Shown piece after piece: positions 1 through 41,308 of a DNA stretch of 41,308 nt. Under the pieces are notes generated by a model. That model saw nothing but the letters and a program-made list of their open reading frames with translations. It searched no databases and was not told where the DNA came from. The stretch comes from a virus, in IMG/VR virus record IMGVR_UViG_3300008012_000004, positions 1 through 41,308 of that record; one strand, written 5' to 3'. The position numbers were made by a program, and so were the translations under genes. Within the stretch, counting starts at the first letter, position 1, and each line of letters opens with the position of its first letter.

Positions 1-1644
1 GATGGGGCGCTTGACTACCTTGCGGGTCAGGTGCAGGGAGCGCAGCCACTCAAGGTCCATGGGGTCCAGCCGGCGGCGCATGATCTGCTTGGCCTCCCCA
101 AGGATGTCGAGGTACAGGTCAGCAGGCTGGTCCGTGGGTAGGACATTGGTAGCCCGTGCCGTAGCTGAGTCACGCAGCAGCAGCGACCATATCTGGAACC
201 CGTTGTTGCTGGCGTCGATCCTGATGGGGAGGTGCGACGGGTAGCTCGGGTCCTTCCACACCTGCGCCACCTCCATGCACCAGCGAAGGAACATCCACGG
301 CTCCTTGGCCTCGGTCCAGAAGGGTTCGCTCAGGGAGTAGGCAGCGCAGCTCTCGATGTACTCCCGGTGCCCAGCCACCCAGTCGAGCTGGTGCTTGCGG
401 GTGCCGGACACACCGTAGAGGGAGGCACCGTAGGCCAGCAGGTCGTCCATGCCCTGCCCCACCGGCTTGCCTTCACTGAACTCCAGCAGCGCCTTGGCTA
501 GGTCACTGCCCTGGGGGGACAGCGTCGAGGCGGCGGGGTACATGCGTCCCCTGAAGTCACAGTAGTGGACGAAGAACAGGTCATTGCCGGCGGCGTGCTT
601 GGCAAGGGACAGCAGGGAGGCGACCCTCACCCTCTGCCCCTGCTCCCTCTTCCTCACGGTGTGGATGCGAAACCTGTCCCTCCGGTACTGCATCCACTCC
701 TCCGAGTCCTCCGCCACCTGGGGGGCAGGGGGGAAGGGGGTCAGCTCCTGAGAGGGGACGCCGGTGGCCGGCATGCCACGCCTGAAGGCAGTGTCGAGCA
801 GCTCCAGCATCTGCTCGTTCACGCGCCACGCTGTCTCCTGTTGCAGGTTCAGTGCGCGGTGTACCTCGGGGGCCGGCGAGGACTGCGGGTGCTTGCTCCG
901 CACCATGGCAGTCTCGATGGTGGGGAACCCACCGGAGTAGTCGCGCCACGGTACGGGCGGCGCGTTGTACAGAGGGGGAAGCAGCGGGCGTAGTAGCTCG
1001 GCCTGTGCGTGCGCCCCGGACAGCCATGAAACAAGGCGCTCGGAGGCGGCTACATACTGCACCGTCTTACGCTTCCCCCGTCGTTCTGTTGTCAGCTCCA
1101 CCAGACCAGTCGTCTCGATGAAGAGGGACAGTGCCACCATCCCTGCCTTGCATCGTATCTCAACAGGGGGGAGAGGGTGCCCCCCTTCTTGGTTCATGTA
1201 CGACGCCAGCCGGCTGGCCTTGTGAGTCTCGGACCAGTAGGGCAGCAGCTTCCGCATGCCCCGGGCGAACCTAGGATCTGTCCTGTCTGCCTTGTGCAGG
1301 ATGGACTCGACTGCCAGGGCTGTGCCGATCTTGATGCACAGGGTGGAGTACACGCGGGGGCTGTGCGCCCCGTCGAGGATGGCCCTGCATACCAGCAGGG
1401 CGCGGAGGTCGGGAGCCAAGGACTCCAGCAGGTCCACCGCACTATGGTTCCTGCCGGGTCCTTGGCTGGCCCGGGTAACCCACCCGGAGAGAGCCGCCGC
1501 CAGAGGGGGGACCACCTGCCCCAGCAGGTTCGCACCTACCAGGGTGTCAGTCTCCCGCTCCTGTGCCTGAGCCTTCCGCCACTGGGAACGGTAGCGGTCC
1601 ACTCCAGCACGCAAGGCGCGAGTCTCCTCCGGGCGAGCGTTCAC
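1..1644 (-). CDS. T7-like single-subunit RNA polymerase, N-terminal two thirds (continues at 41185)
   Basis: DNA-directed RNA polymerase that would transcribe middle and late phage genes. The gene runs 1644 to 1 and, across the circular junction, 41185 to 40514, giving about 771 residues against 883 in T7 gp1. Recognisable blocks are FIETTGLVEL, DFRGRMYPAA and PIRIDASNNGFQ, where D477 matches catalytic T7 Asp537. The start chosen is the GTG at 1644-1642, which overlaps the integrase TGA as GTGA. No good Shine-Dalgarno lies before it. A GAGGAG at 1629-1624 would suit TTG at 1614, and GTG at 1602 is a third option. The N-terminal domain before YSTLCIKIGT is roughly 35 residues shorter than in T7. 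The reading frame was translated by eye from 1644 to 1 and is open throughout. Confidence 0.93.
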   Translation of the reverse strand, partial: MNARPEETRALRAGVDRYRSQWRKAQAQERETDTLVGANLLGQVVPPLAAALSGWVTRASQGPGRNHSAVDLLESLAPDLRALLVCRAILDGAHSPRVYSTLCIKIGTALAVESILHKADRTDPRFARGMRKLLPYWSETHKASRLASYMNQEGGHPLPPVEIRCKAGMVALSLFIETTGLVELTTERRGKRKTVQYVAASERLVSWLSGAHAQAELLRPLLPPLYNAPPVPWRDYSGGFPTIETAMVRSKHPQSSPAPEVHRALNLQQETAWRVNEQMLELLDTAFRRGMPATGVPSQELTPFPPAPQVAEDSEEWMQYRRDRFRIHTVRKREQGQRVRVASLLSLAKHAAGNDLFFVHYCDFRGRMYPAASTLSPQGSDLAKALLEFSEGKPVGQGMDDLLAYGASLYGVSGTRKHQLDWVAGHREYIESCAAYSLSEPFWTEAKEPWMFLRWCMEVAQVWKDPSYPSHLPIRIDASNNGFQIWSLLLRDSATARATNVLPTDQPADLYLDILGEAKQIMRRRLDPMDLEWLRSLHLTRKVVKRPI

Positions 1645-2633
1645 TGGATGGCGTCGATGGCTGCGGTGTAGTCGTGCGGTGCGAGGTGGGAGTAGCGCAC
1701 CGTGGTCTGGATGTCCTGATGGCGGGCCAAGTCCTTGACCGTCTTCAGGGGGACGCCGGCCTGCACCAGCCGAGACACGAAGGTGTGCCGGCAGGTGTGC
1801 CACACGAAGTCCGGGTCGTCCAGCTTGTTCAGCTCCCCGCGCATCAGCTCCCAGTAGTACCGGCAGGTGTGCTTCGTGCATTCGCGGAACGGCCCACGCT
1901 CAGGGTCGAACAGCCGCCGGCGCATGACCACCTCCCGGGCACGGGCAGTGAGAGGCACGCTGCCTGCGTTGGCTCCCTTCTGCTCCCACACCGTGACCCG
2001 CTCGTCGGTGATGTCCTTCCAGTCCAGGGCCAGTGCCTCCCCCAGCCGCAGGCCGGTGTCACACAGGAACAGGAACAGGTCGGCATGCACAGGGGACCGG
2101 CTGTCCAGCTCACGGTGGATCCGCTCGATGTCCTCTGTGGAGTAGAAGGACACCCGCCCCTTGGACTCACGCCGGCGGGGGATCTGCGGCTTGTCCTTCA
2201 TCCAGCCCATGCGGTGGGCGTAGCTGAACATCTTGGACAGCACCGCCAGCTTGCGGTTCACGGTCGCCGGCGTGCTGCCCTCGGCCACCTTGTCTGCGAA
2301 CTGCTGCACCGTCAGCTCGTTGATGTAGGAGAGCTTTAGGTCCCTGCCGAAGTATTGCTCGACCGCTCGCATGTTGCAGCGGATGGTCGGGGCAGACTTG
2401 GCGTCCTTCCAGTAGCGGTCCCAGGTCTTGTCCAGTAGTTCCCCGAAGGTGGTGGGCACGCTCGATGCCTGCCGCACACCGGGCGGGGTGGCGTTGCCTT
2501 GGTTGAAGGCAAGCAGAGTCTCGGCATGCCATAGCTCGGCAGCCTCTCGGGTCTTGAAGGTGCGCCGGTAGCGTGCGCCGGCAGGTGAGGTGAGGTCCGC
2601 CATGAAGGCGGTCCCTCTGCGTCTGATAGTCAT
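1641..2633 (-). CDS. int: Tyrosine recombinase / phage integrase
   Basis: Site-specific recombinase of the lambda integrase family, 330 residues. The N-terminal half (about 40-150) fits a SAM-like core-binding domain. The C-terminal catalytic domain shows R196 in TGLRLGEAL, a candidate Lys at 219, H279-x-x-R282 in HTCRHTF, H305 in LARHQ and the nucleophile Y314 in VRYSHLAP, so every key residue is present. The ATG at 2633 overlaps the TGA of the preceding gene as ATGA; longer N-terminal extensions in this frame run through that gene and look spurious. It lies immediately before the RNA polymerase gene, as in several integrase-bearing marine podoviruses. No attachment site is visible at its edges because both neighbours overlap it. 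Confidence 0.95.
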   Translation of the reverse strand: MTIRRRGTAFMADLTSPAGARYRRTFKTREAAELWHAETLLAFNQGNATPPGVRQASSVPTTFGELLDKTWDRYWKDAKSAPTIRCNMRAVEQYFGRDLKLSYINELTVQQFADKVAEGSTPATVNRKLAVLSKMFSYAHRMGWMKDKPQIPRRRESKGRVSFYSTEDIERIHRELDSRSPVHADLFLFLCDTGLRLGEALALDWKDITDERVTVWEQKGANAGSVPLTARAREVVMRRRLFDPERGPFRECTKHTCRYYWELMRGELNKLDDPDFVWHTCRHTFVSRLVQAGVPLKTVKDLARHQDIQTTVRYSHLAPHDYTAAIDAIQ

Positions 2634-2857
2634 GGCTTGGTGAGGTACTTGGTGGTCAGCTTCCAGATCGAACCATTGCCAACCCACTGGGGAACCTTGC
2701 CCCGTGCAGCCAGCCACTGGTGAACCCACTGGGCTCGTCCGTTCCGGGAGAAGAAGTCGTCGTCGCAGGCGCGGCAGATCCACCACCCACCGAACAGACG
2801 GTGGGGGCGGTCCTTACTGCACCAGTCACAGGTCGAGGGCTTTGGCTTGCTCTGCAT
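2630..2857 (-). CDS. Small zinc-finger-like protein of unknown function
   Basis: 75 residues. Two CxxC pairs (CDWC near residue 10 and CRAC near residue 29) about 19 residues apart suggest a zinc ribbon, followed by a tryptophan-rich basic tail (WVHQWLAARGK, IWKLTTKYL). I do not recognise the family. The start is ATG 2857, preceded by GAGGAG with 7-nt spacing; it overlaps the end of the upstream gene by 32 nt. It is translationally joined to the integrase through ATGA, so a DNA-binding or accessory role beside the integrase is possible but is only inference from position. Confidence 0.7.
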   Translation of the reverse strand: MQSKPKPSTCDWCSKDRPHRLFGGWWICRACDDDFFSRNGRAQWVHQWLAARGKVPQWVGNGSIWKLTTKYLTKP

Positions 2858-3371
2858 CGCGGATCTCCTCGAACCATCCGGGGACACCGAGAGGGGCTCG
2901 CGCCCAAGACTCGGGGCCAGTGATGTACGCCTTGCCCAGCGCAAGGTAGTGCTGGTAGGAGTCGGTGGTGGTGGCCTTCTGGTACTCGCTCGGCATGCAC
3001 GCCGGCGGCTCAGTCCACGGAGTAGAGAAGGGGATCAGGATGGGAGGGTCAACCAGCAGGGCGAGTAGCTTGCTGCTCTCTACCTTGTGGACTCGGCCGT
3101 ACCGCAGCTCGTACTCCTGGCACAGGAAGGTGAGCAGCCGGTAGGTCCAGTGGTACTGCTGGTCCCCGGACATCACCCAAATTGCAGAGGGGTGGCGCTG
3201 GTGGGTGGACTTGTAGAAGTCCTCGAACGAGATACCCGGCACTTCGGCATCGAGGCAACGGTGTGCAGTGCAGAGGAGCTGTGCAGTCTCCAGCACCATC
3301 TTGACCAGCAGCTTGTCAGGCAGGTCGGAGGCGCAGGTCGATGCCCAGGGTGAGGTGTAGAAGATGTTCAT
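2826..3371 (-). CDS. Conserved phage protein of the MNIF type, unknown function
   Basis: 181 residues starting MNIFYTSP. The order of motifs (start MNIF, LLVKMVLETAQLL, CTAHR, HPSAIWV, Y-x-W-x-Y-RLL, CMPSEY, GWFEE) is that of a protein family seen in many phages and usually annotated as hypothetical. Histidines, tryptophans and tyrosines are concentrated in the conserved blocks, so an enzyme or nucleic-acid-binding protein is plausible, but I cannot name a reaction. Its start is three bases after the TAG of the tiny upstream membrane peptide; the leader ends AGCCATG, like many starts in this genome, with no clear Shine-Dalgarno. Confidence 0.85.
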   Translation of the reverse strand: MNIFYTSPWASTCASDLPDKLLVKMVLETAQLLCTAHRCLDAEVPGISFEDFYKSTHQRHPSAIWVMSGDQQYHWTYRLLTFLCQEYELRYGRVHKVESSKLLALLVDPPILIPFSTPWTEPPACMPSEYQKATTTDSYQHYLALGKAYITGPESWARAPLGVPGWFEEIRDAEQAKALDL

Positions 3372-3373
3372 GG

Positions 3374-3457
3374 CTAGGTCAGTAGGACAGGGAGGGTCAT
3401 GAAGAGGAGGAACAGTAGGATGTCTCCCACCGTTCCGTCCTCAGGGTGCTGCGTCAT
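3374..3457 (-). CDS. 27-residue membrane peptide (second of a tandem pair)
   Basis: A short frame encoding a polar head (MTQHPEDGTVGD) and then a strongly hydrophobic segment (ILLFLLFMTLPVLLT) long enough for one membrane span. Its ATG overlaps the TGA of the upstream peptide as ATGA, and its TAG is followed two bases later by the next gene's ATG, so the three would be translated together. No other gene explains these 84 bases. It could be a small lysis, exclusion or signalling peptide. The call rests on tight packing and hydrophobic pattern only. Confidence 0.5.
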   Translation of the reverse strand: MTQHPEDGTVGDILLFLLFMTLPVLLT

Positions 3458-3537
3458 ACGATGAAGACGCACAGGACAAGGGCTCCCAGCACAAGGTAGG
3501 AGGGGAGGTCCTCTCGGAGCTGGTCGAGGTCAGTCAT
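3454..3537 (-). CDS. 27-residue membrane peptide (first of a tandem pair)
   Basis: A short frame with a charged head (MTDLDQLREDLPSY) and a hydrophobic tail (LVLGALVLCVFIV) that would span the membrane once. A GGAGGAG lies about 4-5 nt before the ATG, inside the end of the preceding coiled-coil gene, which it overlaps by 8 nt. The TGA overlaps the next ATG. Both peptides have the same length and layout but different sequences. A non-coding spacer is the alternative, although an ordered Shine-Dalgarno, two stop/start overlaps and two hydrophobic segments in 158 nt argue against it. Confidence 0.5.
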   Translation of the reverse strand: MTDLDQLREDLPSYLVLGALVLCVFIV

Positions 3538-3733
3538 GCATCTCCTCCAGCCGGCGAAGGGATTCGAGGGCGCGGCGCAGATCGGTGCGGAGGTTCTCTG
3601 CCTTCACAACCATGATGCGGTAGCGTTCCTCTTGCAGCTTGTCCCTCTTCTCGTACAGCCTGATCTGTTCCTTGAGGGTGTCGATCAGTAGGTAGAGAGT
3701 CTCGACGGTATCGTGCTGGTCTTGGGTACCCAT
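3530..3733 (-). CDS. Small coiled-coil protein
   Basis: 67 residues, almost entirely helical and charged (TLKEQIRLYEKRDKLQEER, LRTDLRRALESLRRLEEM) with leucines in heptad-like spacing, hence a likely dimeric coiled coil. Family not recognised. Start ATG 3733 shares its first base with the last base of the upstream TGA (TGATG), a coupling used by many genes here; the upstream extension in this frame is a shadow of the neighbouring gene. It ends just after the start of the first 27-residue membrane peptide, so a partnership with these peptides is conceivable but unproved. Confidence 0.7.
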   Translation of the reverse strand: MGTQDQHDTVETLYLLIDTLKEQIRLYEKRDKLQEERYRIMVVKAENLRTDLRRALESLRRLEEMHD

Positions 3734-3939
3734 CAGGCAATATCTCCGTTCACTCTCGCCTCTTCGTAGCATCCCTGGCAGGCCAGCCACTCGGTGACGC
3801 GAATCGAGCCGATCAGGACGAGGGACTCCATGTACTTAGTGGCAGGGTGCAGCTCGCACACCTCGCAGTAGATGACCTCGTCAGTCATGGGGTCGATGGC
3901 GTGGCCTTGGTCGTTCGTGAACTCGGGGGTGGTACTCAC
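3733..3939 (-). CDS. Small CxxC-containing protein, unknown function
   Basis: 68 residues beginning (GTG)STTPEFTNDQGHAI. CEVC near residue 26 and CQGC near residue 54 could bind one zinc ion. The GTG start at 3939-3937 is preceded by AGGAGG with 7-nt spacing and overlaps the upstream TGA as GTGA; no in-frame ATG gives a better start. Family not recognised. The N-terminal STT resembles the MSTT starts of neighbouring early proteins, which suggests duplication of the leader and start segment among these genes. Confidence 0.7.
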   Translation of the reverse strand: MSTTPEFTNDQGHAIDPMTDEVIYCEVCELHPATKYMESLVLIGSIRVTEWLACQGCYEEARVNGDIA

Positions 3940-4238
3940 GACTTCACCTCCTGCTGATCGACAGGATGCTCCAGGGGGCAGCTGCTGATGTACAGGTGGT
4001 ACTGGACGCGCATGGTGCCATCGCGCCGCCAGGATGTGCGCCACTCCTGGGCCGTGGCGTACCACTTGTAGTCGGAATCGGCTGCTCTCCGCTCGCAATA
4101 CTGCTGGGCCTGCTTCATGTCGAGGAAGGCTCGGCGCACCACGGCGCGGGGGAGGTCCTCTCCTTTGTCGAGGGCATCCACGCACACGATCCATGCGGTG
4201 CGGGGGAGGGTGGGGATCAGGTGTTTAGTGGTACTCAT
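3936..4238 (-). CDS. Early hypothetical protein (100 aa)
   Basis: 100 residues, starting MSTTKHLIPTLPRTAWIVCVDAL. Mixed alpha/beta composition with an Arg-rich middle (REWRTSW-like stretch) and many aromatic residues (YKWYATAQEW, YHLYIS). I do not recognise it; the first third reads like a beta strand plus helix of a small single-domain protein. The 5' leader contains a perfect 8-bp hairpin (GCAGGCAC/GTGCCTGC) and ends AGACAGCCATG. The gene lies just downstream of the hammerhead ribozyme at 4281-4350, so its messenger would begin, after cleavage at 4288/4287, about 50 nt before the start codon. Confidence 0.75.
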   Translation of the reverse strand: MSTTKHLIPTLPRTAWIVCVDALDKGEDLPRAVVRRAFLDMKQAQQYCERRAADSDYKWYATAQEWRTSWRRDGTMRVQYHLYISSCPLEHPVDQQEVKS

Positions 4239-4242
4239 GGCT

Positions 4243-4261
4243 GTCTAGTGCAGGCACCGTG
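4243..4261 (-). other. Leader hairpin before the 100-aa early gene
   Basis: On the minus strand GCAGGCAC pairs with GTGCCTGC around a single base (a three-base loop in practice). It sits between the ribozyme cleavage site and the start codon. A hairpin close to the 5' end is known to slow RNase E attack on bacterial messengers; that role here is inference. Confidence 0.55.
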
Positions 4262-4280
4262 CCTGCCGGGTGGCTGTCTG

Positions 4281-4350
4281 CGTCCCGGACACCCGCCGCA
4301 CTCTGGGCTGGGTGTTTCGGCCCGACGCCTCGGGCCTCATCAGCGGGTCA
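4281..4350 (-). ncRNA. Hammerhead ribozyme A (type I)
   Basis: Minus-strand core CUGAUGAG (4343-4336), stem II of 7 bp (4336-4330 with 4325-4319, loop GGCG), CGAAAC (4319-4314), stem III CACCC/GGGUG (4314-4310 with 4294-4290) closed by a 15-nt loop, then U4289 and C4288, giving a GUC cleavage triplet. Cut predicted between 4288 and 4287. Stem I is open-ended: CCCG (4347-4344) with CGGG (4287-4284), only 4 bp, then an A-A mismatch. The TGA stop of the upstream 86-aa gene lies within stem I. All invariant core bases of the hammerhead family are present. The short stem I is the weak point. Confidence 0.85.
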
Positions 4351-4608
4351 GGTAGGGGTGCCCCACTCCTCGGAGCAGTCGGCGGGGTTGATGCCGTGGT
4401 CGGCGCAGTAGTCCTCGGTGGCCGCAGTGATGTAGGCCTGGATCGGACCCTCCCCGCGGCACAGCGGCACGCTGTCGATCACAAGGCCACGCTCGTCCCG
4501 GACCTCCAGCTCGTCCGGGGTATCGGCGTACCAGTAGAAGTAGACGGGCGCGGCATCGTGGTGGGTGCCGGGGAAGGGGTACAGGGTGAGGCAGAGGTTG
4601 GTACTCAT
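4348..4608 (-). CDS. Early hypothetical protein (86 aa)
   Basis: 86 residues, start MSTNLCLTLYPFPGTHHDAAPV. Predominantly acidic, with Y/F-rich strands (VYFYWYADTP) followed by ELEVRDERGLVIDSVPL, which looks like a small beta-rich fold, and an acidic helical C-terminus with two cysteines (YCADHGINPADCSEEW). Family not recognised. Transcription should begin at the promoter at 4663-4691, about 50 nt upstream; the leader holds a hairpin and ends ACAGACAGCCATG. Acidic small early proteins of T7-like phages often inhibit host enzymes, but nothing in the sequence proves this. Confidence 0.75.
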   Translation of the reverse strand: MSTNLCLTLYPFPGTHHDAAPVYFYWYADTPDELEVRDERGLVIDSVPLCRGEGPIQAYITAATEDYCADHGINPADCSEEWGTPT

Positions 4609-4635
4609 GGCTGTCTGTTGGGTTGGCTGTCAGGT

Positions 4636-4650
4636 GCGGGACTGTCCCGC
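4636..4650 (-). other. Leader hairpin just downstream of promoter P1
   Basis: Minus-strand GCGGGA pairs with UCCCGC around CAG. It begins a few bases after the expected transcription start of P1 (about 4655). Almost the same hairpin follows P2 (5672-5687), and a variant GCGGG-UCAG-CCCGC follows P3 (6740-6753), so the structure is a recurrent part of these leaders. Too short a U tract follows for a terminator. Confidence 0.6.
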
Positions 4651-4662
4651 GAAGGTAGGGTC

Positions 4663-4691
4663 ATTGTACTCCCCGACCAGACACCTGTCAA
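4663..4691 (-). promoter_or_regulatory. Promoter P1 (sigma-70 type, near consensus)
   Basis: TTGACA (4691-4686) and TACAAT (4668-4663) separated by 17 bp on the minus strand, in the spacer between the ArdC gene and the 86-aa early gene. This is a perfect -35 and a 5/6 -10, the strongest host-type promoter seen in the window. It would be read by the host polymerase before phage polymerase exists. Confidence 0.88.
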
Positions 4692-4698
4692 GTCGGGG

Positions 4699-4716
4699 AG
4701 TGTAAGCACTTTGTAA
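4699..4716 (-). promoter_or_regulatory. 18-bp box upstream of P1
   Basis: Plus-strand AGTGTAAGCACTTTGTAA. Close copies stand at 5733-5750 (P2) and 6803-6820 (P3), each 6-7 bp upstream of the -35. TGTA half-sites recur 11 bp apart, one helical turn. It could be the binding site of an activator or repressor, or an UP-like element. Confidence 0.6.
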
Positions 4717-4718
4717 GA

Positions 4719-5663
4719 TCACTCGGCCTCGGCGTACTCCGCCTTGCGGGCGGCGAGCGCAGCAGCCTTGTCTCCTCGGGCCAGGATGAGGGCCGCAGCC
4801 TTGGCTGCCTTGCCGGTGGCCTGCACGATCCACTTGGGGTTGTCCTTGAGCTGCTTCGCCCAGCTCGCAAGGTAGCTCGCGCTGTTATCCACCACCTCGG
4901 TGTGGATGCCAGCCTCGGAGGCCAGGAACAGGGCGGTGAACTCGGCCACCAGCTCCTCGAAGGCATAGATGTGGCCCCCGAATCCATCGGACTCGGTGAT
5001 GCCCTTGCGGGCCAGCCGGTCAGCGTGCCCGGTGCTGTGGCCCAGCTCATGGAACACGGTGGTCCAGTAGTCGGACTCGGTGTTGAAGCTAGAGAGGGGC
5101 GGCACGGTCACCGAGTCCTTGCTCGGGCGGTAGAAGGCAGACGCCCCCTCCTCCTTGAAGGACGGCCCGAAGCCTCCCTCGATGTAGCCCTTGGCAATGG
5201 CCTCGGCCTGGGTGTTGGCTGCCTTGCAGTCCTCCTCGGTCCAGTCCTCGACGGTGGTGGGGACGCCGCACACGGTGGTGGGGAACCCGTTCGCCCAGTC
5301 AGCCTGGGTGGACTGGAACACGGTGAAGTGCCGCAGGAAGGGGATCAGCTTCTTCTCGCCGGTGACCTTGTCCTTGGTCGGGATCATCTTCCAGTAGGTC
5401 ACGATGGTGCCCTTCTCACCCTTGCGGACCTGACCGCCGGCCTGCTGGATGGCCTTGTAGGTGCCCCACCAGCTCGGCTGTCCGCCGGCCAGAAGGTCGA
5501 GCCACCAAGCGTTGCCGCCTCGGTAGAGCTTGCCGGTGCTAAGGGAACGGGCTCCCGTGGTGGCGGTGTTGCCGACCCAGGTCTTCACCCAGGGGTTCAC
5601 ACCGGCTTCGAGGAGGGCGACGACCTGATCGGTCACGAGTTGGTAGGTGTCTTTGCGTTGCAT
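4719..5663 (-). CDS. ardC: ArdC-type anti-restriction protein with zincin metallopeptidase domain
   Basis: 314 residues. The N-terminal 130 or so (YQLVTDQVVALLEAGVNPW, GGNAWWL, KGEKGTIVTYWK, FTVFQSTQ) match the ssDNA-binding half of the ArdC family; the C-terminal half carries the zinc motif HELGHSTGH (H205, E206, H209) and a downstream YAFEELVAEF helix that supplies the usual third ligand. Known ArdC proteins from conjugative plasmids protect incoming single-stranded DNA from restriction. Early expression from P2 fits a role like that of T7 Ocr, though the mechanism would differ. Start ATG 5663 has the AGACAGCCATG leader; the longer frame start at 5708 overlaps the promoter. Both catalytic and metal-binding residues are intact. 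Confidence 0.9.
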   Translation of the reverse strand: MQRKDTYQLVTDQVVALLEAGVNPWVKTWVGNTATTGARSLSTGKLYRGGNAWWLDLLAGGQPSWWGTYKAIQQAGGQVRKGEKGTIVTYWKMIPTKDKVTGEKKLIPFLRHFTVFQSTQADWANGFPTTVCGVPTTVEDWTEEDCKAANTQAEAIAKGYIEGGFGPSFKEEGASAFYRPSKDSVTVPPLSSFNTESDYWTTVFHELGHSTGHADRLARKGITESDGFGGHIYAFEELVAEFTALFLASEAGIHTEVVDNSASYLASWAKQLKDNPKWIVQATGKAAKAAALILARGDKAAALAARKAEYAEAE

Positions 5664-5671
5664 GGCTGTCT

Positions 5672-5687
5672 GCGGGACTGTCCCCGC
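5672..5687 (-). other. Leader hairpin downstream of promoter P2
   Basis: On the minus strand GCGGG and CCCGC enclose a 6-nt loop GACAGU, close to the expected 5' end of the ArdC messenger. It resembles the hairpin at 4636-4650 and stands immediately before the GACAGCCATG start. Confidence 0.5.
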
Positions 5688-5698
5688 TAGGTGGGTGG

Positions 5699-5726
5699 AG
5701 TATACCACGCTGGACTACGGTGTCAA
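5699..5726 (-). promoter_or_regulatory. Promoter P2 (sigma-70 type) for the ArdC gene
   Basis: TTGACA (5726-5721) and TATACT (5704-5699), 16-bp spacing, minus strand. It lies between ribozyme B and the ArdC start codon. Confidence 0.85.
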
Positions 5727-5732
5727 GCGGGC

Positions 5733-5750
5733 AGTGTATCCTGTTTGTAA
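5733..5750 (-). promoter_or_regulatory. 18-bp box upstream of P2
   Basis: Plus-strand AGTGTATCCTGTTTGTAA, second member of the three-copy box, with TGTA half-sites 11 bp apart and 6 bp from the -35. Confidence 0.6.
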
Positions 5751-5751
5751 A

Positions 5752-5805
5752 ACCCGGACACCCCGGAGGGTGTTTCGTCCCCGGTCCTGGGACTCATCAG
5801 CGGGT
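5752..5805 (-). ncRNA. Hammerhead ribozyme B (type I)
   Basis: Minus-strand CUGAUGAG (5800-5793); stem II GUCCC/GGGAC (5793-5789 with 5781-5777, 7-nt loop); CGAAAC (5777-5772); stem III ACACCC/GGGUGU (5773-5768 with 5763-5758) capped by a UCCG tetraloop; C17 at 5757, so the cut falls between 5757 and 5756. Stem I is ACCCG (5805-5801) with CGGGU (5756-5752), 5 bp. The UGA stop of the upstream zinc-motif gene is bases 2-4 of the core, so coding and catalytic constraints overlap. Promoter P2 follows directly. Confidence 0.88.
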
Positions 5806-6717
5806 GGCGGAGCTGACCCTGTAGGCCTTGCTGGGGCGCTTGCCGAATCCTACGGAGGGGTCATCATCGGACACCTCGACGGTGACGGTGACGCCCACGG
5901 TGTCCCCCACAGACCAGTCCCTCCAGCAGTCCTGGGGGATGGTCAGGTGGACCACGACCACGCCGGCCTCGGTCTGGACCTTGACGGTGCCACGCTTGCG
6001 GAGCCCGTAGGCGTTCGTGACCAATCGCTCCGATACCAGCTCACCCTCGACCACCTGCCGACCAGCGGTCAGGGTGCCACGGGGATCGGCGGCGGTCTGG
6101 GCCTCGGTGTGCAGCTTCCGCAGCAGGGTGAGCTGGGCCTCGCTCAGTCCCCAGCGGGCACCCTTGCCGACGAGATCCTGGGCGAGGCGGACACCGTGGT
6201 GGGAGATGCGGCTGGTATCGGCGTCCCAGGTGTACGGGTCGGTGACGCCCCAGTCCTGAAGGCGGGCAGCGTACTCTGCCTCGGCCTTGGCCTTGGCCTT
6301 GGCAGCCTTGGCCTGCCGCCGCAGGGTGGCCTGGGCGCGGCGGCGCAGGTACTTGCGGACCAGCTCGACGGCGTCCTCCAGGGACATCAGCTTGACCTCA
6401 GTGGGGGGCAGGCCCTTCACACTGCACTGGAGGCAGCGGTCGCCGTGGGTCAGGTTGAAGGAGTACCGACCTGAGCCCCCGCACCGAGGGCAGACGGACT
6501 CGACCTCGGTGCCGAGGTAGCCGCAGGCCAGGGAGGCCACGATGGCCTCGGGGACCTGCCAACCGTCGAGCATGTCCAGGGCATGGTCCCAGCCCTGCAC
6601 CTTGCTGGCGGTGCGCTCGACCACCTGCTCGGCGGTGAGGTTGTGTTCGATGCTGTAGATCGGCAGCTTGAGTCCGGCGGGGCGGTCGAAGACCAGGGTA
6701 GAGAGGCTGTATCGCAT
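5797..6717 (-). CDS. Early zinc-motif protein (306 aa), unknown function
   Basis: 306 residues. Residues 76-98 form a CPRC-x15-CLQC zinc site (C76, C79, C95, C98) of the DnaJ/rubredoxin-knuckle kind. A long basic Ala/Lys/Arg-rich helix (about 120-150: RRRAQATLRRQAKAAKAKAK) follows, then a central helical region and a C-terminal beta-rich segment (TVKVQTEAGVVVVHLTIP, VGVTVTVEV) that looks like an OB-like or barrel domain. The architecture suggests nucleic-acid binding. No family recognised. Start ATG 6717; the frame extends upstream to 6951 but that part runs through ribozyme C and P3. Transcribed from P3; leader holds a hairpin and ends AGCACAGCCATG. Confidence 0.8.
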   Translation of the reverse strand: MRYSLSTLVFDRPAGLKLPIYSIEHNLTAEQVVERTASKVQGWDHALDMLDGWQVPEAIVASLACGYLGTEVESVCPRCGGSGRYSFNLTHGDRCLQCSVKGLPPTEVKLMSLEDAVELVRKYLRRRAQATLRRQAKAAKAKAKAEAEYAARLQDWGVTDPYTWDADTSRISHHGVRLAQDLVGKGARWGLSEAQLTLLRKLHTEAQTAADPRGTLTAGRQVVEGELVSERLVTNAYGLRKRGTVKVQTEAGVVVVHLTIPQDCWRDWSVGDTVGVTVTVEVSDDDPSVGFGKRPSKAYRVSSATR

Positions 6718-6739
6718 GGCTGTGCTAGGGTGAAGGTGG

Positions 6740-6753
6740 TGCGGGCTGACCCG
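6740..6753 (-). other. Leader hairpin downstream of promoter P3
   Basis: Minus-strand GCGGG and CCCGC enclose UCAG. It is the third leader hairpin of the same type, placed about 15 nt into the P3 transcript. Confidence 0.5.
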
Positions 6754-6767
6754 CTGGGTGAGGTTGG

Positions 6768-6795
6768 AGCATAGCACGCTTGACAGGGGTGTCAA
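6768..6795 (-). promoter_or_regulatory. Promoter P3 (sigma-70 type)
   Basis: TTGACA (6795-6790) and TATGCT (6773-6768) with 16-bp spacing on the minus strand, between ribozyme C and the 306-aa gene. A second TGACA-like string lies within the spacer (CTTGACACCCCTGTCAAG is an inverted repeat), which could be bound by a symmetric regulator. Confidence 0.82.
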
Positions 6796-6802
6796 GCTGG
6801 GA

Positions 6803-6820
6803 AGTGTATGCTGTTCGTAA
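6803..6820 (-). promoter_or_regulatory. 18-bp box upstream of P3
   Basis: Plus-strand AGTGTATGCTGTTCGTAA, third copy; one half-site is CGTA rather than TGTA. It is 7 bp from the -35. Confidence 0.6.
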
Positions 6821-6823
6821 GAT

Positions 6824-6877
6824 CCCCGGACACCCCGAAGGGTGTTTCGGCCCCGATCCTGGGCCTCATCAGCGGGC
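6824..6877 (-). ncRNA. Hammerhead ribozyme C (type I)
   Basis: Minus-strand CUGAUGAG (6872-6865); stem II GGCCC/GGGCC (6865-6861 with 6853-6849, 7-nt loop AGGAUCG); CGAAAC (6849-6844); stem III ACACCC/GGGUGU (6845-6840 with 6835-6830) with a UUCG tetraloop; C17 at 6829 and cut between 6829 and 6828. Stem I CCCG/CGGG (6876-6873 with 6828-6825), 4 bp. Compared with ribozyme B the stem II pairs differ on both sides (UCCC/GGGA against GCCC/GGGC), a compensatory pattern. The stop codon of the 91-aa gene is inside the core. Confidence 0.88.
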
Positions 6878-7144
6878 GGCGGAGGCCTGCTGGTAGGCCC
6901 GGATGAAGTCCCAGAGAGGGCTGCCAGCAGGGAGGCTGACATCCCGGACATAGTCCCCGGAGGCCTCGACGGCGGCGATCAGGCGGTCGGCATCCTGGGC
7001 GGCGCAGGTGAACCTGCTGCCTCCGCAGCGCACCAGCACCTGGGTGAGGCGGGTGCTTTCACGGCGCGTCAGGGCTGCGACCTCCGTCTCGGTGAGGAAC
7101 CCGTGCTGCTGCTGGATGGTCTGGAAGAGGGTGGTGGTACTCAT
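6869..7144 (-). CDS. Early hypothetical protein (91 aa)
   Basis: 91 residues, start MSTTTLFQTIQQQHGFLTETEV. Helix-rich: an LTETEVAALTRRESTRLTQVLVRCG stretch could form a helix-turn-helix-like unit, followed by an acidic/aliphatic helix ending in YQQASAAR. No family recognised. The start is set by the ACAGACAGCCATGAG leader shared with neighbouring genes; upstream in-frame residues translate ribozyme D and are not counted. Its TGA is part of the ribozyme C core (two UGA codons in a row, CGC UGA UGA). Confidence 0.72.
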   Translation of the reverse strand: MSTTTLFQTIQQQHGFLTETEVAALTRRESTRLTQVLVRCGGSRFTCAAQDADRLIAAVEASGDYVRDVSLPAGSPLWDFIRAYQQASAAR

Positions 7145-7160
7145 GGCTGTCTGTGGGTGA

Positions 7161-7215
7161 GGGTGTTTCGGCCTTCTGGGCCTCATCAGCGGGGCAGTAG
7201 CAGCCCCGGACACCC
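7161..7215 (-). ncRNA. Hammerhead ribozyme D (type III)
   Basis: Here stem III is the open helix: GGGUGU (7215-7210) with ACACCC (7166-7161). C17 is 7209 and the cut falls between 7209 and 7208. Stem I is closed, CGGGGC/GCCCCG (7208-7203 with 7195-7190), loop UGCUACU. Core CUGAUGAG (7189-7182), stem II GGCC/GGCC (7182-7179 with 7173-7170, loop CAGAA), CGAAAC (7170-7165). Closed stems I and II with loops of 7 and 5 nt are the usual arrangement for loop-loop contacts that speed natural hammerheads. It lies between the 99-aa and 91-aa early genes, 17 nt before the latter's start codon. Confidence 0.92.
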
Positions 7216-7225
7216 GGAGGTGTCA
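7161..7225 (-). repeat. 65-bp repeat, copy 1 (holds ribozyme D)
   Basis: Bases 7161-7225 and 7541-7605 are identical except at one position (a at 7185, g at 7565). The repeat covers the whole ribozyme plus a few bases up to the stop codon of the upstream gene; the flanking genes are unrelated in sequence. Confidence 0.92.
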
Positions 7226-7522
7226 GGCGGAGGCCAGATCCTCCAAGAGGTCGTAGCGCAGCCCCCACAGGTACTCGGCCTCGCGGACGACCGCGACGCG
7301 CAGGCGGAGGTGATCGCCGGGGCTCTGGACGGGGCAGGCGTCCTCCAGATTCCAGCAGGCGTGCCAGAGGTCGTACAGGTCCTCCTGATCGAAGGCCTTG
7401 CACTCGGAGATGTTCCGGCACTCCGAGGTCAGGACGCGGGCCTCGCACCGCGAGAGGTTGGCGAGGTGGGCGAGGTTGGCGAGGAGCTGAAGGGCGGGGT
7501 CGGAGTGGATGGTGGTAGGCAT
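7223..7522 (-). CDS. Early hypothetical protein (99 aa)
   Basis: 99 residues beginning MPTTIHSDPALQLLANLAHL. Leucine-rich N-terminal helix, four cysteines (residues about 27, 35, 41 and 56-64: RCEARVLTSECRNISECK, HACWNLEDACP), then RLRVAVVREAEYLWGLRYDLLEDL. The cysteines could bind metal but are not in CxxC pairs. Family not recognised. Start ATG 7522 carries the ACTGACAGCCATG leader; a longer open frame reaches 7795 but reads through ribozyme E. The TGA is 8 nt before ribozyme D. Confidence 0.72.
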   Translation of the reverse strand: MPTTIHSDPALQLLANLAHLANLSRCEARVLTSECRNISECKAFDQEDLYDLWHACWNLEDACPVQSPGDHLRLRVAVVREAEYLWGLRYDLLEDLASA

Positions 7523-7540
7523 GGCTGTCAGTGTTGGGGT

Positions 7541-7595
7541 GGGTGTTTCGGCCTTCTGGGCCTCGTCAGCGGGGCAGTAGCAGCCCCGGACACCC
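7541..7595 (-). ncRNA. Hammerhead ribozyme E (type III)
   Basis: Same layout as ribozyme D: stem III GGGUGU/ACACCC (7595-7590 with 7546-7541), C17 at 7589 with the cut between 7589 and 7588, closed stem I CGGGGC/GCCCCG (7588-7583 with 7575-7570), core CUGACGAG (7569-7562), stem II GGCC/GGCC (7562-7559 with 7553-7550), CGAAAC (7550-7545). The only difference from D over 65 bp is C for U at core position 7, the one position where hammerheads tolerate any base. It separates the 120-aa and 99-aa early genes. Confidence 0.92.
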
Positions 7596-7605
7596 GGAGG
7601 TGTCA
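7541..7605 (-). repeat. 65-bp repeat, copy 2 (holds ribozyme E)
   Basis: Second copy of the repeat at 7161-7225, 64 of 65 bases identical. Its end supplies the TGA stop of the 120-aa gene, as copy 1 does for the 99-aa gene, so the unit can be placed after a gene and bring its own stop codon. Confidence 0.92.
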
Positions 7606-7965
7606 CAGGCTGCCGCCGTACCACTCGCGGGCCAGCTCGCGGAGGGGCTCGCTGCGGAACTTCTCGCGGAGGTCCTCGATGCGCGGGTCCGCGAACACCG
7701 TCTCGTCGGTGACCCCGGCGGAGCGCAGCAGCTCCAGCCCTGCGGCAGCCTGCTCCAGCCCGAATCCGAGGGCGAACAGGGTCGCCGCCTCGCACTCGGT
7801 GATGTCGGAGGCAGGGGCAGGCACGCCCACCATGCCGATGATGGCGGCTCGGTCCAGCTCGCAGACATACTCGGCGTCGTACAGGTCGTCGGCGGCGTTG
7901 CGGCCACCGAAGGCCGGACGGTCAAGGAAGCAGCAGAGGTCGGCGGGGATGTTGGAGGTACTCAT
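7603..7965 (-). CDS. First early protein (120 aa), unknown function
   Basis: 120 residues beginning MSTSNIPADLCCFLDRPAFGG. Acidic and helical, with repeated patterns LDRAAIIGMVGV, ECEAATLFALGFGLEQAAAGLELLRSAGV and EDLREKFRSEPLRELAREWYG; it resembles a bundle of short helices. Not recognised. It is the first protein gene after the non-coding left region and would be the first product made from the candidate promoter P0 at 8027-8056. Leader ends ACACAGACAGCCATG. In T7 the equivalent place holds host-takeover and anti-restriction genes. Confidence 0.75.
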   Translation of the reverse strand: MSTSNIPADLCCFLDRPAFGGRNAADDLYDAEYVCELDRAAIIGMVGVPAPASDITECEAATLFALGFGLEQAAAGLELLRSAGVTDETVFADPRIEDLREKFRSEPLRELAREWYGGSL

Positions 7966-8368: not shown

Positions 8369-8528
8369 GCAGCCTCGGCGGAGGGTGGGCCGGGGTCGGT
8401 CGCGGGGGCACGGGGGGGAGTAGCCGGCCCCCGCTTACATATACCCCCTCAGATTTTTGTGTCAGAATTGGGGAGGGGGTCCATGAGGGACCATCACCAC
8501 CACATTTAGCACTCGGGGTACAGAGTCA

Positions 8529-8538
8529 GAACATGTTC
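8529..8538. promoter_or_regulatory. 10-bp palindrome GAACATGTTC
   Basis: Perfect palindrome, followed on the plus strand by AAACAGTTC so that a third half-site-like GTTC lies nearby. Possible operator in the left-end region; spacing does not fit the known alphaproteobacterial (GTTC-N7-GTTC) LexA site. Confidence 0.3.
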
Positions 8539-8625
8539 AAACAGTTCACAACCCCAGCAGGTCTAGTAACTGTCTTTAGACATGGTCTTCTATGGTCTTG
8601 ATACCCCTTAGCTAACTCTTCCAAC

Positions 8626-8655
8626 ACCTTATAAGACCTTATAAGACCTTATAAG
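8626..8655. repeat. Three tandem copies of ACCTTATAAG
   Basis: Exact 10-bp unit repeated three times, one turn of B-DNA per unit, in otherwise non-repetitive DNA. T7 and relatives carry arrays of short AT-containing repeats next to their terminal redundancy; a similar place in this genome is likely. Confidence 0.85.
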
Positions 8656-8718
8656 CCCCCCTACCCCCCAGAGCTACCTCCCATTGGGACCCTATTCAGG
8701 GTTGTCCCGCATGAGATA

Positions 8719-8755
8719 GGGGGTGAATCTAGGGCAACTACCTAGACCCACCCCC
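8719..8755. terminator. Strong imperfect hairpin (possible terminator or end structure)
   Basis: GGGGGTG (8719-8725) pairs with CACCCCC (8749-8755), and TCTAGG (8728-8733) with CCTAGA (8741-8746), leaving a 2x2 internal loop and a 7-nt apical loop: 13 bp in all. There is no U tract on either strand, so a classical terminator is not assured; it could stop late transcription or mark the DNA ends. Confidence 0.55.
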
Positions 8756-8764
8756 ACAATAACT

Positions 8765-8843
8765 GACCACCAAGACCCCGACTGAGGGAAGCCGGGATGG
8801 GAGTTGAGAAGTGTAAGGCTCTCTTGCTTTGGTCTTGGTGGTC
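8765..8843. repeat. 13-bp perfect inverted repeat enclosing a nested stem
   Basis: GACCACCAAGACC (8765-8777) and GGTCTTGGTGGTC (8831-8843) are exact reverse complements 53 bp apart. Between them CCCGACT (8776-8782 region) and AGCCGGG (8789-8795 region) form a second stem with one G-U pair when read as minus-strand RNA, and GAGA/TCTC a third, so the whole can fold as a branched RNA. Function unknown. Confidence 0.7.
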
Positions 8844-8850
8844 GTGCGGT

Positions 8851-9108
8851 TTACCGCCCTCGTCCCCCTCCAGGGTTGGGCTGAGACTGCTGTCCAGACA
8901 CCTGAGGGCGGGCATTCGGTCTAAGGGGCCTCACAGGCCCGCTACGGCCTTTTCCGCCCGACATGACTCGGGAGCCGTATCCAGCCCCAACGCCGCCCAG
9001 AAGGGCTCTGGCGGCCTCTGGAGTGAATCCTAGGTTGCGGAGGCCCTGTAGGGAGCCCGACATCTCTGACAGGCGCTCGATGGGGATCTGAAGTCGTTGC
9101 AGGTTCAT
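8851..9108 (-). CDS. Small late protein downstream of terminase (85 aa)
   Basis: 85 residues, start MNLQRLQIPIERLSEMSGSL. N-terminal amphipathic helix, a GFTPEAARALLGGVGAGYG segment, and a basic Pro/Gln/Gly-rich tail (RPQVSGQQSQPNPGGGRGR) that should be disordered. Start codon one base after the terminase TGA. It is the last gene of the late block, the place of the small gp19.5-type proteins of T7; no sequence similarity to them is claimed. Confidence 0.6.
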   Translation of the reverse strand: MNLQRLQIPIERLSEMSGSLQGLRNLGFTPEAARALLGGVGAGYGSRVMSGGKGRSGPVRPLRPNARPQVSGQQSQPNPGGGRGR

Positions 9109-9109
9109 G

Positions 9110-10801
9110 TCACATCCAAGTGTGGGGGTCGTTGCGCTGTCCGAAGGTGGAGGTGTTCATGATATTCTCCAGCTCGCGTTCCAGCAGCTCGTCTCTCCGG
9201 GCTTTCATCTGCTCGTCAGCAGTGATGCCGGCAGCCTCGACCCAGTATCCAACGGCCATGGAGAGGACATCGAGGCGGTCGTCGTGGATCAGTGCCCCTT
9301 TTTCGCGGCAGATCCGGGTGAGCTGGTGGAAGAGTCGGTATTGGTTCCGCTTCTCAGCCGGCAGATGCTCTACACTCCGGTAGTCCTGTTCGATCAGGCG
9401 GGGAGAGACGACCAGCTTATGCTGATTCAATATTGGCTCAAGCGTGTCAATGATTCGCTTCTCCTTCTGGATGTTGTGACGGACCTCTTCGGTAGTGACC
9501 GGGTACACCTTCCTGAGATACGGCTTGAGCAGTTCGAGGAACATCCCGTCCCCAAAGTTACTTTCTACGAGAACAAGGTTCACCTTGTGTCGCTTGGCTT
9601 CCTGTGCCAGCTTTTCGAGGACATCCTTGCTGTATCCGCCGGGGAGCCCAGTGCATTCCTGAACATACATGAAGCCGTTCAGGATCTTGACTATTGCGTA
9701 GGTCGTCTCGTCCGTTCCCCGTCCACTGGGGTCGATAGCCATGACGGACCCCGTGTACGGTAGGAAGTCCCCGTCAATCGCCATTGGGCGGTGGTAATGA
9801 TCCCCAGCGAACCCCACATTGGGCAGGTCCTTGAGGGTGTACTCGCCACTGCCGGCCCAGATCAGGTTCTCGGGGGCCTTGAGGGGGTCAATGTCCAGAA
9901 CGATCAGGTCCCTGAGCTTCAGCGGGAACTTGAAGTCGTCTTCCAGGGACGGGTCCAGCATGAACTGGAGGGCGAAGCCCGATTTGCCATAAGAGGCTTC
10001 CCGTTCTGCTAGGTCGTGGCCGTTGAAGCGCAGGGGGTCGGTGGGCTCCCCCACCATGTCCTCCTGCCCCTCCATCTCTTGCAGCACCTTGGGGGCCAGG
10101 GTGGCCCCGTAACGCTGCCTGAGGGCCTTGGAGGGGTAGCGGGCCGGCCAGATCCTCGTCTCGTAGCCACGGTCTGGGAGGGCGTGGTAGAGGCTTCCTG
10201 CGTCCGTCTGAGGCGTGCCCAGGAACACGATCTCGCCGCCCGGTTTGACGATGGCCTCGAACTCCTTGACCAGCTCGGACAGCTTGTCCCGCATGCCCTG
10301 GGTGGCAGCGTTGTTCAGGGACTCAGCGTCGTCGGAGATGATGAGGTCGGCGCGAGATCCGGTGAGCTGGCCGGTGATCCCCACAGACTTCACAGACGGC
10401 GCGTGAGCCGCCTTAGCCGGCCCCACATCGAAGGACACCTTGGAGGTCCGCTGGTCCTCTGAGGGCCGCAGGTGGGCCAGCAGAGGCATGTCCCAGATCA
10501 GGCGCTGGGTGAAGGTCGAGAAGTCGTCTGCTCGGACCTTCGAGGCTGACACCACCAGCACATTTATCTGGGGGTCCATCAGGAGCCGCCAGACGGCGTA
10601 AGTGCTTGTCAGGTAAGACTTTCCGACGCCTCGGAAGGCGCAGATGATGCGCCGCTTGGGGCCTCCCTGGAGGTAGTCCGCAATGTCATACTGGACGGGC
10701 GTCGGATCAGGGAGTCCAAGGTGCGCCCACACCAGATAGACGAAGTTGCGGAAGTCCTTCAGCTCCTCCGGGATCTCGTACTGGACGGGCGCTTTGCTCA
10801 T
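9110..10801 (-). CDS. terL: Terminase large subunit (gp19-like)
   Basis: 563 residues. DNA-packaging motor ATPase and nuclease. Walker A is AFRGVGKS (residues 55-62), Walker B LIISDDAE (near 150), coupling motif region IVFLGTPQ, and the RNase H-like nuclease begins with MAIDPSGRGTDETTYAIV and continues with LVLVESNFGDG and HDDRLDVL, which supply the acidic metal ligands. All these are arranged as in T7 gp19, and the length is close to the T7 protein (586). ATG overlaps the small-subunit TGA as ATGA. Confidence 0.96.
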   Translation of the reverse strand: MSKAPVQYEIPEELKDFRNFVYLVWAHLGLPDPTPVQYDIADYLQGGPKRRIICAFRGVGKSYLTSTYAVWRLLMDPQINVLVVSASKVRADDFSTFTQRLIWDMPLLAHLRPSEDQRTSKVSFDVGPAKAAHAPSVKSVGITGQLTGSRADLIISDDAESLNNAATQGMRDKLSELVKEFEAIVKPGGEIVFLGTPQTDAGSLYHALPDRGYETRIWPARYPSKALRQRYGATLAPKVLQEMEGQEDMVGEPTDPLRFNGHDLAEREASYGKSGFALQFMLDPSLEDDFKFPLKLRDLIVLDIDPLKAPENLIWAGSGEYTLKDLPNVGFAGDHYHRPMAIDGDFLPYTGSVMAIDPSGRGTDETTYAIVKILNGFMYVQECTGLPGGYSKDVLEKLAQEAKRHKVNLVLVESNFGDGMFLELLKPYLRKVYPVTTEEVRHNIQKEKRIIDTLEPILNQHKLVVSPRLIEQDYRSVEHLPAEKRNQYRLFHQLTRICREKGALIHDDRLDVLSMAVGYWVEAAGITADEQMKARRDELLERELENIMNTSTFGQRNDPHTWM

Positions 10802-40513: not shown

Positions 40514-41308
40514 TCAGGTTGCGAAGTATCGAGACTCCGCGATCATCGTCGGGTTGAAGTCACGCACCATGGGTGGCGCGGGAACTTCGATGTCGAGGGA
40601 CTTGTGAAGTTCCTCAAGGGGACTCTCCTCTCCGCCGAACAGCTCGGCAGCACATGAGAGGAGAGCGTTCCGTAGGGCGGGCAGGTCGGCAGCGTGCGTG
40701 CCGAAGCAGTCATGCACCAGCGCGAAGTTATCGACGCCATGCTGGCCGGCACGGACCACCGCCATGGTGGCAAGGGCAGCATCGAATGAGTGCGTCAGGT
40801 TAGGCATGGCTGTCGAGACACACTTGACCTTGTCGAGTTGGTCGGTGTCTTCGGTCAGCTTAGTGATCCGGTAGCTGCGTCCGCAATAGGTCTTGACCCT
40901 CACGAACTTAGGTTTCCGGTAGTCGTTCCTAACCTCCAGCCCAGTAGGGGTTTGCCACTCCAGCACCTTGCCTTGGCTCGCCAGGATGCGCGTCACTTCC
41001 TGCACCCACTCCATGCCGGCCATGACTGCGGGGCACCGCTTGGCTACCAGCTCGCGCAGCAGACGGGCGAGGTGGAAGGACGCCTTGCCCATGTTGGTGA
41101 AGGCATCGAAGCCTCCCTCCTCCTCGACCACGGCCACGATGGAGTCGGCCATACCCCGCAGCGTGGCGGAGTAGGGCAGCGTCATGATGGGGCGCTTGAC
41201 TACCTTGCGGGTCAGGTGCAGGGAGCGCAGCCACTCAAGGTCCATGGGGTCCAGCCGGCGGCGCATGATCTGCTTGGCCTCCCCAAGGATGTCGAGGTAC
41301 AGGTCAGC
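40514..41308 (-). CDS. T7-like RNA polymerase, C-terminal part (joined to 1-1644)
   Basis: Carboxy-terminal palm and fingers of the same polymerase; bases 41186-41308 are the repeat of 1-123. Numbering from GTG 1644, K545 and Y553 in KRPIMTLPYSA match T7 Lys631 and Tyr639, which bind and select the incoming nucleotide. D707 in VHDCFGTH matches the second metal-binding Asp812. The protein ends in SRYFAT, a counterpart of the T7 C-terminus (SDFAFA) that sits in the active site. The ssDNA-binding protein gene starts two bases after the TGA. In T7 relatives this enzyme recognises short phage promoters; I could not derive a secure consensus for them here. Confidence 0.95.
   Translation of the reverse strand, partial: ADLYLDILGEAKQIMRRRLDPMDLEWLRSLHLTRKVVKRPIMTLPYSATLRGMADSIVAVVEEEGGFDAFTNMGKASFHLARLLRELVAKRCPAVMAGMEWVQEVTRILASQGKVLEWQTPTGLEVRNDYRKPKFVRVKTYCGRSYRITKLTEDTDQLDKVKCVSTAMPNLTHSFDAALATMAVVRAGQHGVDNFALVHDCFGTHAADLPALRNALLSCAAELFGGEESPLEELHKSLDIEVPAPPMVRDFNPTMIAESRYFAT
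41186..41308. repeat. Terminal 123-bp direct repeat (circular assembly overlap)
   Basis: These 123 bases are identical to bases 1-123. They lie inside the RNA polymerase reading frame, whereas true terminal repeats of T7-like phages lie outside genes, between the last late gene and the early promoters. The simplest reading is an assembler overlap from a circular or terminally redundant molecule, so the unique length is 41,185 bp. Confidence 0.9.

Follow-up and report, generated by a model that had tools for sequence, protein, structure and literature searches.

The early region and its elements

The DNA analysed here (the window) is the whole of IMG/VR virus record IMGVR_UViG_3300008012_000004, 41,308 nucleotides from a T7-like phage, and the subject of this report is a series of five complete hammerhead ribozymes, HH1 to HH5, which lie one per spacer within 3.3 kb of its minus (transcribed) strand. 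The record is a circular genome, its ends sharing 123 bp (window 1-123 and 41186-41308) and the RNA polymerase gene spanning their join. The T7-like character claimed in an earlier note made from this DNA is borne out by a T7-type terminase, a single-subunit RNA polymerase, a Gp2.5-like protein, primase/helicase, DNA polymerase, exonuclease, portal, scaffold, capsid and tail genes; the polymerase together with T7-type replication, portal and terminase genes in T7 order places the phage in the Autographiviridae. It also carries an integrase gene (window 1641-2786) and, by its gene content and layout, is probably temperate. A tRNA scan of the window found none, and thus no attachment site or host is assigned. 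The hammerhead series has the terminase on one side and the integrase and polymerase on the other, with the anti-restriction gene ardC inside it. In T7 the early genes occupy the corresponding region of the genome. Layout and gene content therefore suggest that this is the early region, and the early location proposed in that note agrees with both the host-type promoters and the anti-restriction gene.

In the order of transcription, all on the minus strand, the first early gene, A (7603..7965, 120 amino acids), is followed by HH5 (7540..7596), a type III hammerhead (stem III open) with core CUGACGA starting at 7569, stems I/II/III of 6/4/5 bp and a predicted cut at 7589/7588. A hairpin, GACACC-UCCG-GGUGUC (7589..7604), ends exactly at this cut and has the stop codon of gene A at its base. 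The arrangement recurs behind gene B (7223..7522, 99 amino acids), which lies between HH5 and HH4: the latter (7160..7216) is again type III, with core CUGAUGA from 7189, stems of 6/4/5 bp, a cut at 7209/7208, and the same hairpin (7209..7224) with the upstream stop codon at its base. In both, stem I is closed by UGCUACU. Gene C (6869..7144, 91 amino acids) separates HH4 from HH3 (6825..6876), a type I hammerhead (stem I open) with core start 6872, stems of 4/5/5 bp and a cut at 6829/6828, directly downstream of which lies a sigma70-like promoter (6768..6795). Gene D (5797..6717, 306 amino acids, matching PHROGs of unknown function) leads on to the type I HH2 (5752..5805; core start 5800; stems of 5/5/5 bp; cut 5757/5756), likewise with a sigma70-like promoter directly downstream (5699..5726). 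Both HH2 and HH3 have a core whose UGA doubles as the stop codon of the upstream gene.

Gene E (4719..5663) encodes the anti-restriction protein ArdC, with an ArdcN and a metallopeptidase domain (phrog_7245, E 5.7e-69; PF08401, PF18818). The spacer between it and gene F (4348..4608, 86 amino acids) holds a sigma70-like promoter (4663..4691) and no hammerhead. Behind gene F lies the type I HH1 (4282..4349; core start 4343; stems of 4/7/5 bp; cut 4288/4287), the stop codon standing a few bases ahead of the core. All five cuts accordingly fall directly behind genes, namely A, B, C, D and F; genes A, B, C and F are of unknown function, and A has no PHROG or Pfam match. In total, four sigma70-like (host-type) promoters were found in the array stretch against 0.6 +/- 0.7 expected, and three early-region genes have promoters of their own; between the cut and the next gene no promoter was detected for HH5, HH4 or HH1.

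Identification of the five hammerheads

A motif descriptor requiring the core, an NUH cleavage site and three stems returned, over the 41 kb window, these five structures and no others. All five therefore stand in the minus-strand spacers to which the earlier note had assigned them, and its predicted 5' ends (4287, 5756, 6828, 7208 and 7588) equal the computed cut positions. The core CUGANGA ... GAAA is complete in every copy, as is the cleavage triplet GUC. Among 100 dinucleotide shuffles (200 strands), one strand held a single structure this good, a chance expectation of about 0.005 per strand, compared with five on the one real strand.

The same note had looked to a scan with the Rfam type I and type III models, and here the outcome is divided. 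None of the five sites passes the gathering score, yet Hammerhead_3 matches HH4 (7160-7216, E 1.6e-7) and HH5 (7540-7596, E 2.8e-7), and Hammerhead_1 matches within HH2 (5760-5806, E 1.1e-3). A covariance model (R1) trained on 36 type I hammerheads, all from other phages and none from the window, recovers HH3 (6825-6876, E 7.6e-12), HH2 (5752-5805, E 1.1e-11) and HH1 (4282-4349, E 7.3e-10); its source phages were gathered with a pattern taken from the window core, such that likeness in stem III is partly chosen, while likeness in the core and in the presence of three stems is not. The 36 sequences covary, but a descriptor based on pairing was used to pick them, which accounts for part of that count. 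A search with a looser pattern for type III gave no match. Protein scans with ArdC and the gene D product yielded as their sole relative a near-identical contig (L079, 99.9%) from the same kind of sample, and hence there were no close homologues with which to follow covariation within the species.

The sites could in principle be chance or decayed look-alikes without activity, and the failure of all five to reach the Rfam cut-off would fit such a view. However, one strand carries five of them within 3.3 kb where about 0.005 would be expected; all lie in spacers, every core base is intact, and trained models give E values of 1e-7 to 1e-12, so that we think this view very improbable indeed. Taken alone, the gathering threshold wrongly dismisses these hammerheads. 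We regard it as confirmed at the level of sequence that the five spacers encode hammerhead ribozymes, three of type I and two of type III, for which self-cleavage is predicted.

T7-like relatives and published arrays

Homologues of the type III copies occur in four T7-like genomes: Rhizobium phages RHEph01 and RHEph21, an Agrobacterium prophage (L313), and L314 (IMGVR_UViG_2858590830_000002). Stem I, the loop I frame and stem II are common to these and to the window copies. In this type III set of five, a small sample, stem I has compensatory change, with both sides altered in 2 of its 6 pairs. L314 and RHEph01 (Autographiviridae, Paadamvirus) are among the closest known counterparts of the window phage: both are T7-like, have an integrase and carry in the early region a type III hammerhead in which stem II (GGCC/GGCC) and the frame of stem I and loop I (CGGGGC-UGNNNCU-GCCCCG) are those of the window copies. 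They differ from it in having one hammerhead of each type instead of two type III and three type I, a shorter stem III and lower Rfam scores. L314, whose terminase is of the T7 type, has its three hammerheads (III, II and I, at 8463-10700) grouped around ArdA; genes for a MarR-like protein, a tRNA and an integrase come next. A type II copy of L313 (10152-10219), downstream of a type III, passes the Rfam cut-off (42.4 vs 37 bits), and RHEph01 and TRX32-1 have type II together with type I-like copies. Two Agrobacterium T7-like prophages were free of hammerheads on one flank; the opposite end is the one that holds their early genes, and there a type III and a type II copy were found in one of them.

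Arrays of this kind were described by Perreault et al. 2011 (PMC3088659), who reported prophages with multiple hammerheads and proposed that these cut phage transcripts to gene length. Three tandem arrays cleaved in vitro, and a triple array of Agrobacterium tumefaciens, set among tail, ardA, marR and integrase genes, cleaved both in vitro and in E. coli (PMC3088659). As in the window, its hammerheads are of mixed type and flank early or accessory genes near an anti-restriction gene and an integrase; the window differs in that it has five, ordered III, III, I, I, I, and ardC where the published array has ardA; it lacks type II copies, and we saw no marR. The layout of L314 is that published for the A. 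tumefaciens triple, from which we infer that the latter, too, lies in a T7-like prophage, although the passages of PMC3088659 used here do not call it T7-like. The same paper reported the hammerhead of phage PaP3 (Bruynoghevirus), a podovirus like the window phage (R1 match at E 5e-10); PaP3 has a single element and is not T7-like. Beyond PMC3088659 we found no publication on hammerheads in T7-like phages within a literature coverage that left out subscription papers and preprints.

In the viral collection type I arrays are many: G017 has 14 matches (12 to 14 hammerheads), G016 seven and G018 five, the series being located at G017/L303 8351-14668 and L304 (G016) 2054-7358. Most of the G017/L303 hammerheads are preceded by a stop codon and followed by an AGGAGG-led start. 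The window, too, has the arrangement of a phage hammerhead array, in which several hammerheads on one strand flank single genes, with five in 3.3 kb. The view in the earlier note that such a series is unusual for a podovirus does not hold, given the published prophage arrays (PMC3088659), the T7-like L314 and arrays of 5 to 14 elsewhere; comparable hammerhead arrays, one of them in a T7-like relative, are already known or occur in other phages. The window holds the densest hammerhead set in a T7-like genome in this analysis, and the published ardA array gains from it a wider setting, the early regions of integrase-bearing T7-like phages, repeatedly beside an anti-restriction gene. The search of T7, LUZ100, CRP-114 and several other T7-like phages found no hammerhead, and R1 had no match on 15 terminase-related T7-like contigs, most of which are fragments, one (L002) probably lacking the early region.

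Cleavage and its products

The structure, conservation and position of the five hammerheads were computed directly, and they lead us to infer cleavage in the cell, its timing and its benefit. We consider it very probable that five self-cleaving hammerheads punctuate the early region of this T7-like integrase phage, cutting read-through early RNA behind genes A, B, C, D and F. By all signs in the sequence the ribozymes are functional. Cores and stems are complete in all five, where almost none are expected; R1 and the Rfam models between them score every copy; each site sits at a gene's 3' end in the transcribed strand; the type III copies have homologues with compensatory stem I changes in four T7-like genomes; similar series exist elsewhere (G017), and published arrays do cleave (PMC3088659). 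Loop II can also pair with the 3' tail, as GCG/CGC in HH1 and as GAUC/GAUC in HH3. Contacts of this loop-tail type are described for many hammerheads (PMC3088659); in our wider set, loop II pairs with the tail that follows stem I slightly but consistently more than with swapped tails. The minimum free energy fold is the hammerhead for HH1, HH2 and HH3.

The early RNA would thus cut itself during or after its synthesis. A hairpin closed at the cut or beside it, shortly past the stop codon, would form the end of the upstream product, and the downstream product would begin with a 5'-hydroxyl. Such cutting may uncouple the stability and translation of adjacent early messages and could clear away the read-through RNA that precedes the internal promoters. 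Cutting into gene-length RNAs is likely, but the monocistronic messengers foreseen in the earlier note claim too much, as no hammerhead separates ardC from gene F and three genes have promoters of their own. That such cutting frees the phage from host RNase III, as had also been suggested, is possible but unsupported. In T7, host RNase III, a protein enzyme, cuts stem-loops in the early RNA. The parallel is that of one early transcript cut between early genes, T7 differing in that no hammerhead was found in it. The good understanding of early RNA processing in T7, and the existence of laboratory strains deficient in RNase III, make the T7-like setting a simple model for asking what phage hammerheads do.

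Conceivably, the product that matters most could be a protected 3' end of the upstream message and not the separated downstream messages. At all five predicted 3' ends a hairpin lies at, or at most 2 nt from, the cut (stem III itself in type I copies, the extra GACACC-UCCG-GGUGUC hairpin in HH4 and HH5, worth -9.5 kcal/mol as the HH5 product end). Stop codons abut or sit inside the ribozymes, and HH2 and HH3 each have a promoter directly behind them. However, the genes after HH5, HH4 and HH1, where promoters were not detected, depend on read-through RNA. We hold this to be a real but lesser possibility.

Several observations weigh against the reading of five self-cleaving elements. Four of 18 consensus hammerheads were inactive in vitro (PMC3088659), and HH2 has no convincing pairing of loop II with its tail. 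Syntenic early spacers of L004, the nearest relative compared in this region (72% DNA identity over the terminase gene), are free of hammerheads, which are thus not essential for this genome type; taken with their absence from T7 and the other T7-like phages searched, the trait comes and goes. The UCCG hairpin of HH4 and HH5 competes with stem III, and, with tertiary contacts left out of the calculation, the hairpin fold (-29.5 kcal/mol in both) is favoured over the hammerhead fold (-27.3 in HH4, -27.4 in HH5). Because the competing hairpin is about 2 kcal/mol more stable, these two may cut more slowly or under control. Cleavage could then be regulated, a ribosome at the stop codon or the HH4/HH5 hairpin delaying the cut so that processing depends on translation. 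This would agree with the near-equal energies of the two folds and with the stop codons being the core UGA itself in HH2 and HH3 and lying at the base of the hairpin in HH4 and HH5; such overlap could equally reflect plain genome compaction, and we think regulation of this sort unlikely.

Stem I within and between phages

An unexpected regularity is that each phage tends to have a stem I of its own, with stems II and III being variable. Over 17 sets of at least two hammerheads, some of them from related phages, stem I arms cross-pair within a phage at a mean of 0.63, compared with 0.11 for shuffled labels (maximum 0.30 of 500), whereas for stems II and III the real labels do no better than the shuffled ones. 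CCCG/CGGG recurs in stem I of all three type I sites of the window. In L303 and L304 the stem I arms are largely shared inside each phage. Exceptions are L081, L179, L130 and L092, within which the arms differ.

Sharing could come from shared 5' leaders, gene conversion or re-ligation. In the last case, following viroid and retrozyme logic, successive stem I strands would pair, and released RNAs would refold through their shared arms and be re-ligated into circular or exchanged messages. The within-phage compatibility and the common CCCG/CGGG speak for it; the four exceptional sets, the failure of Perreault et al. to see spliced or circular products when they looked for them (PMC3088659), and the alternative causes at hand (a shared leader, recent duplication or gene conversion) make it improbable. 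It is just as improbable that stem I is conserved within a genome, with stems II and III drifting, because each ribozyme leaves a 5'-hydroxyl end that has to pair with the following one, so that released early RNAs could be re-ligated during infection into circular or exchanged messengers. A phage-specific stem I does suggest a cheap test for message ligation or exchange.

The module of stem III hairpin, GUC and CGGG seen in the type III copies equals the 3' half of the type I copies, and we conjecture that the former derived from a type I by tandem duplication; their homology to type III copies in other T7-like phages favours an older origin.

Three of the spacers (5747-5664, 6819-6718 and 4717-4609, minus strand) share a motif, TTACRAA...TACACT, which precedes the promoter, and their leaders contain a GCGGGACAGTCCCGC-like palindrome; the two are a possible binding site and a possible 5' hairpin, respectively.

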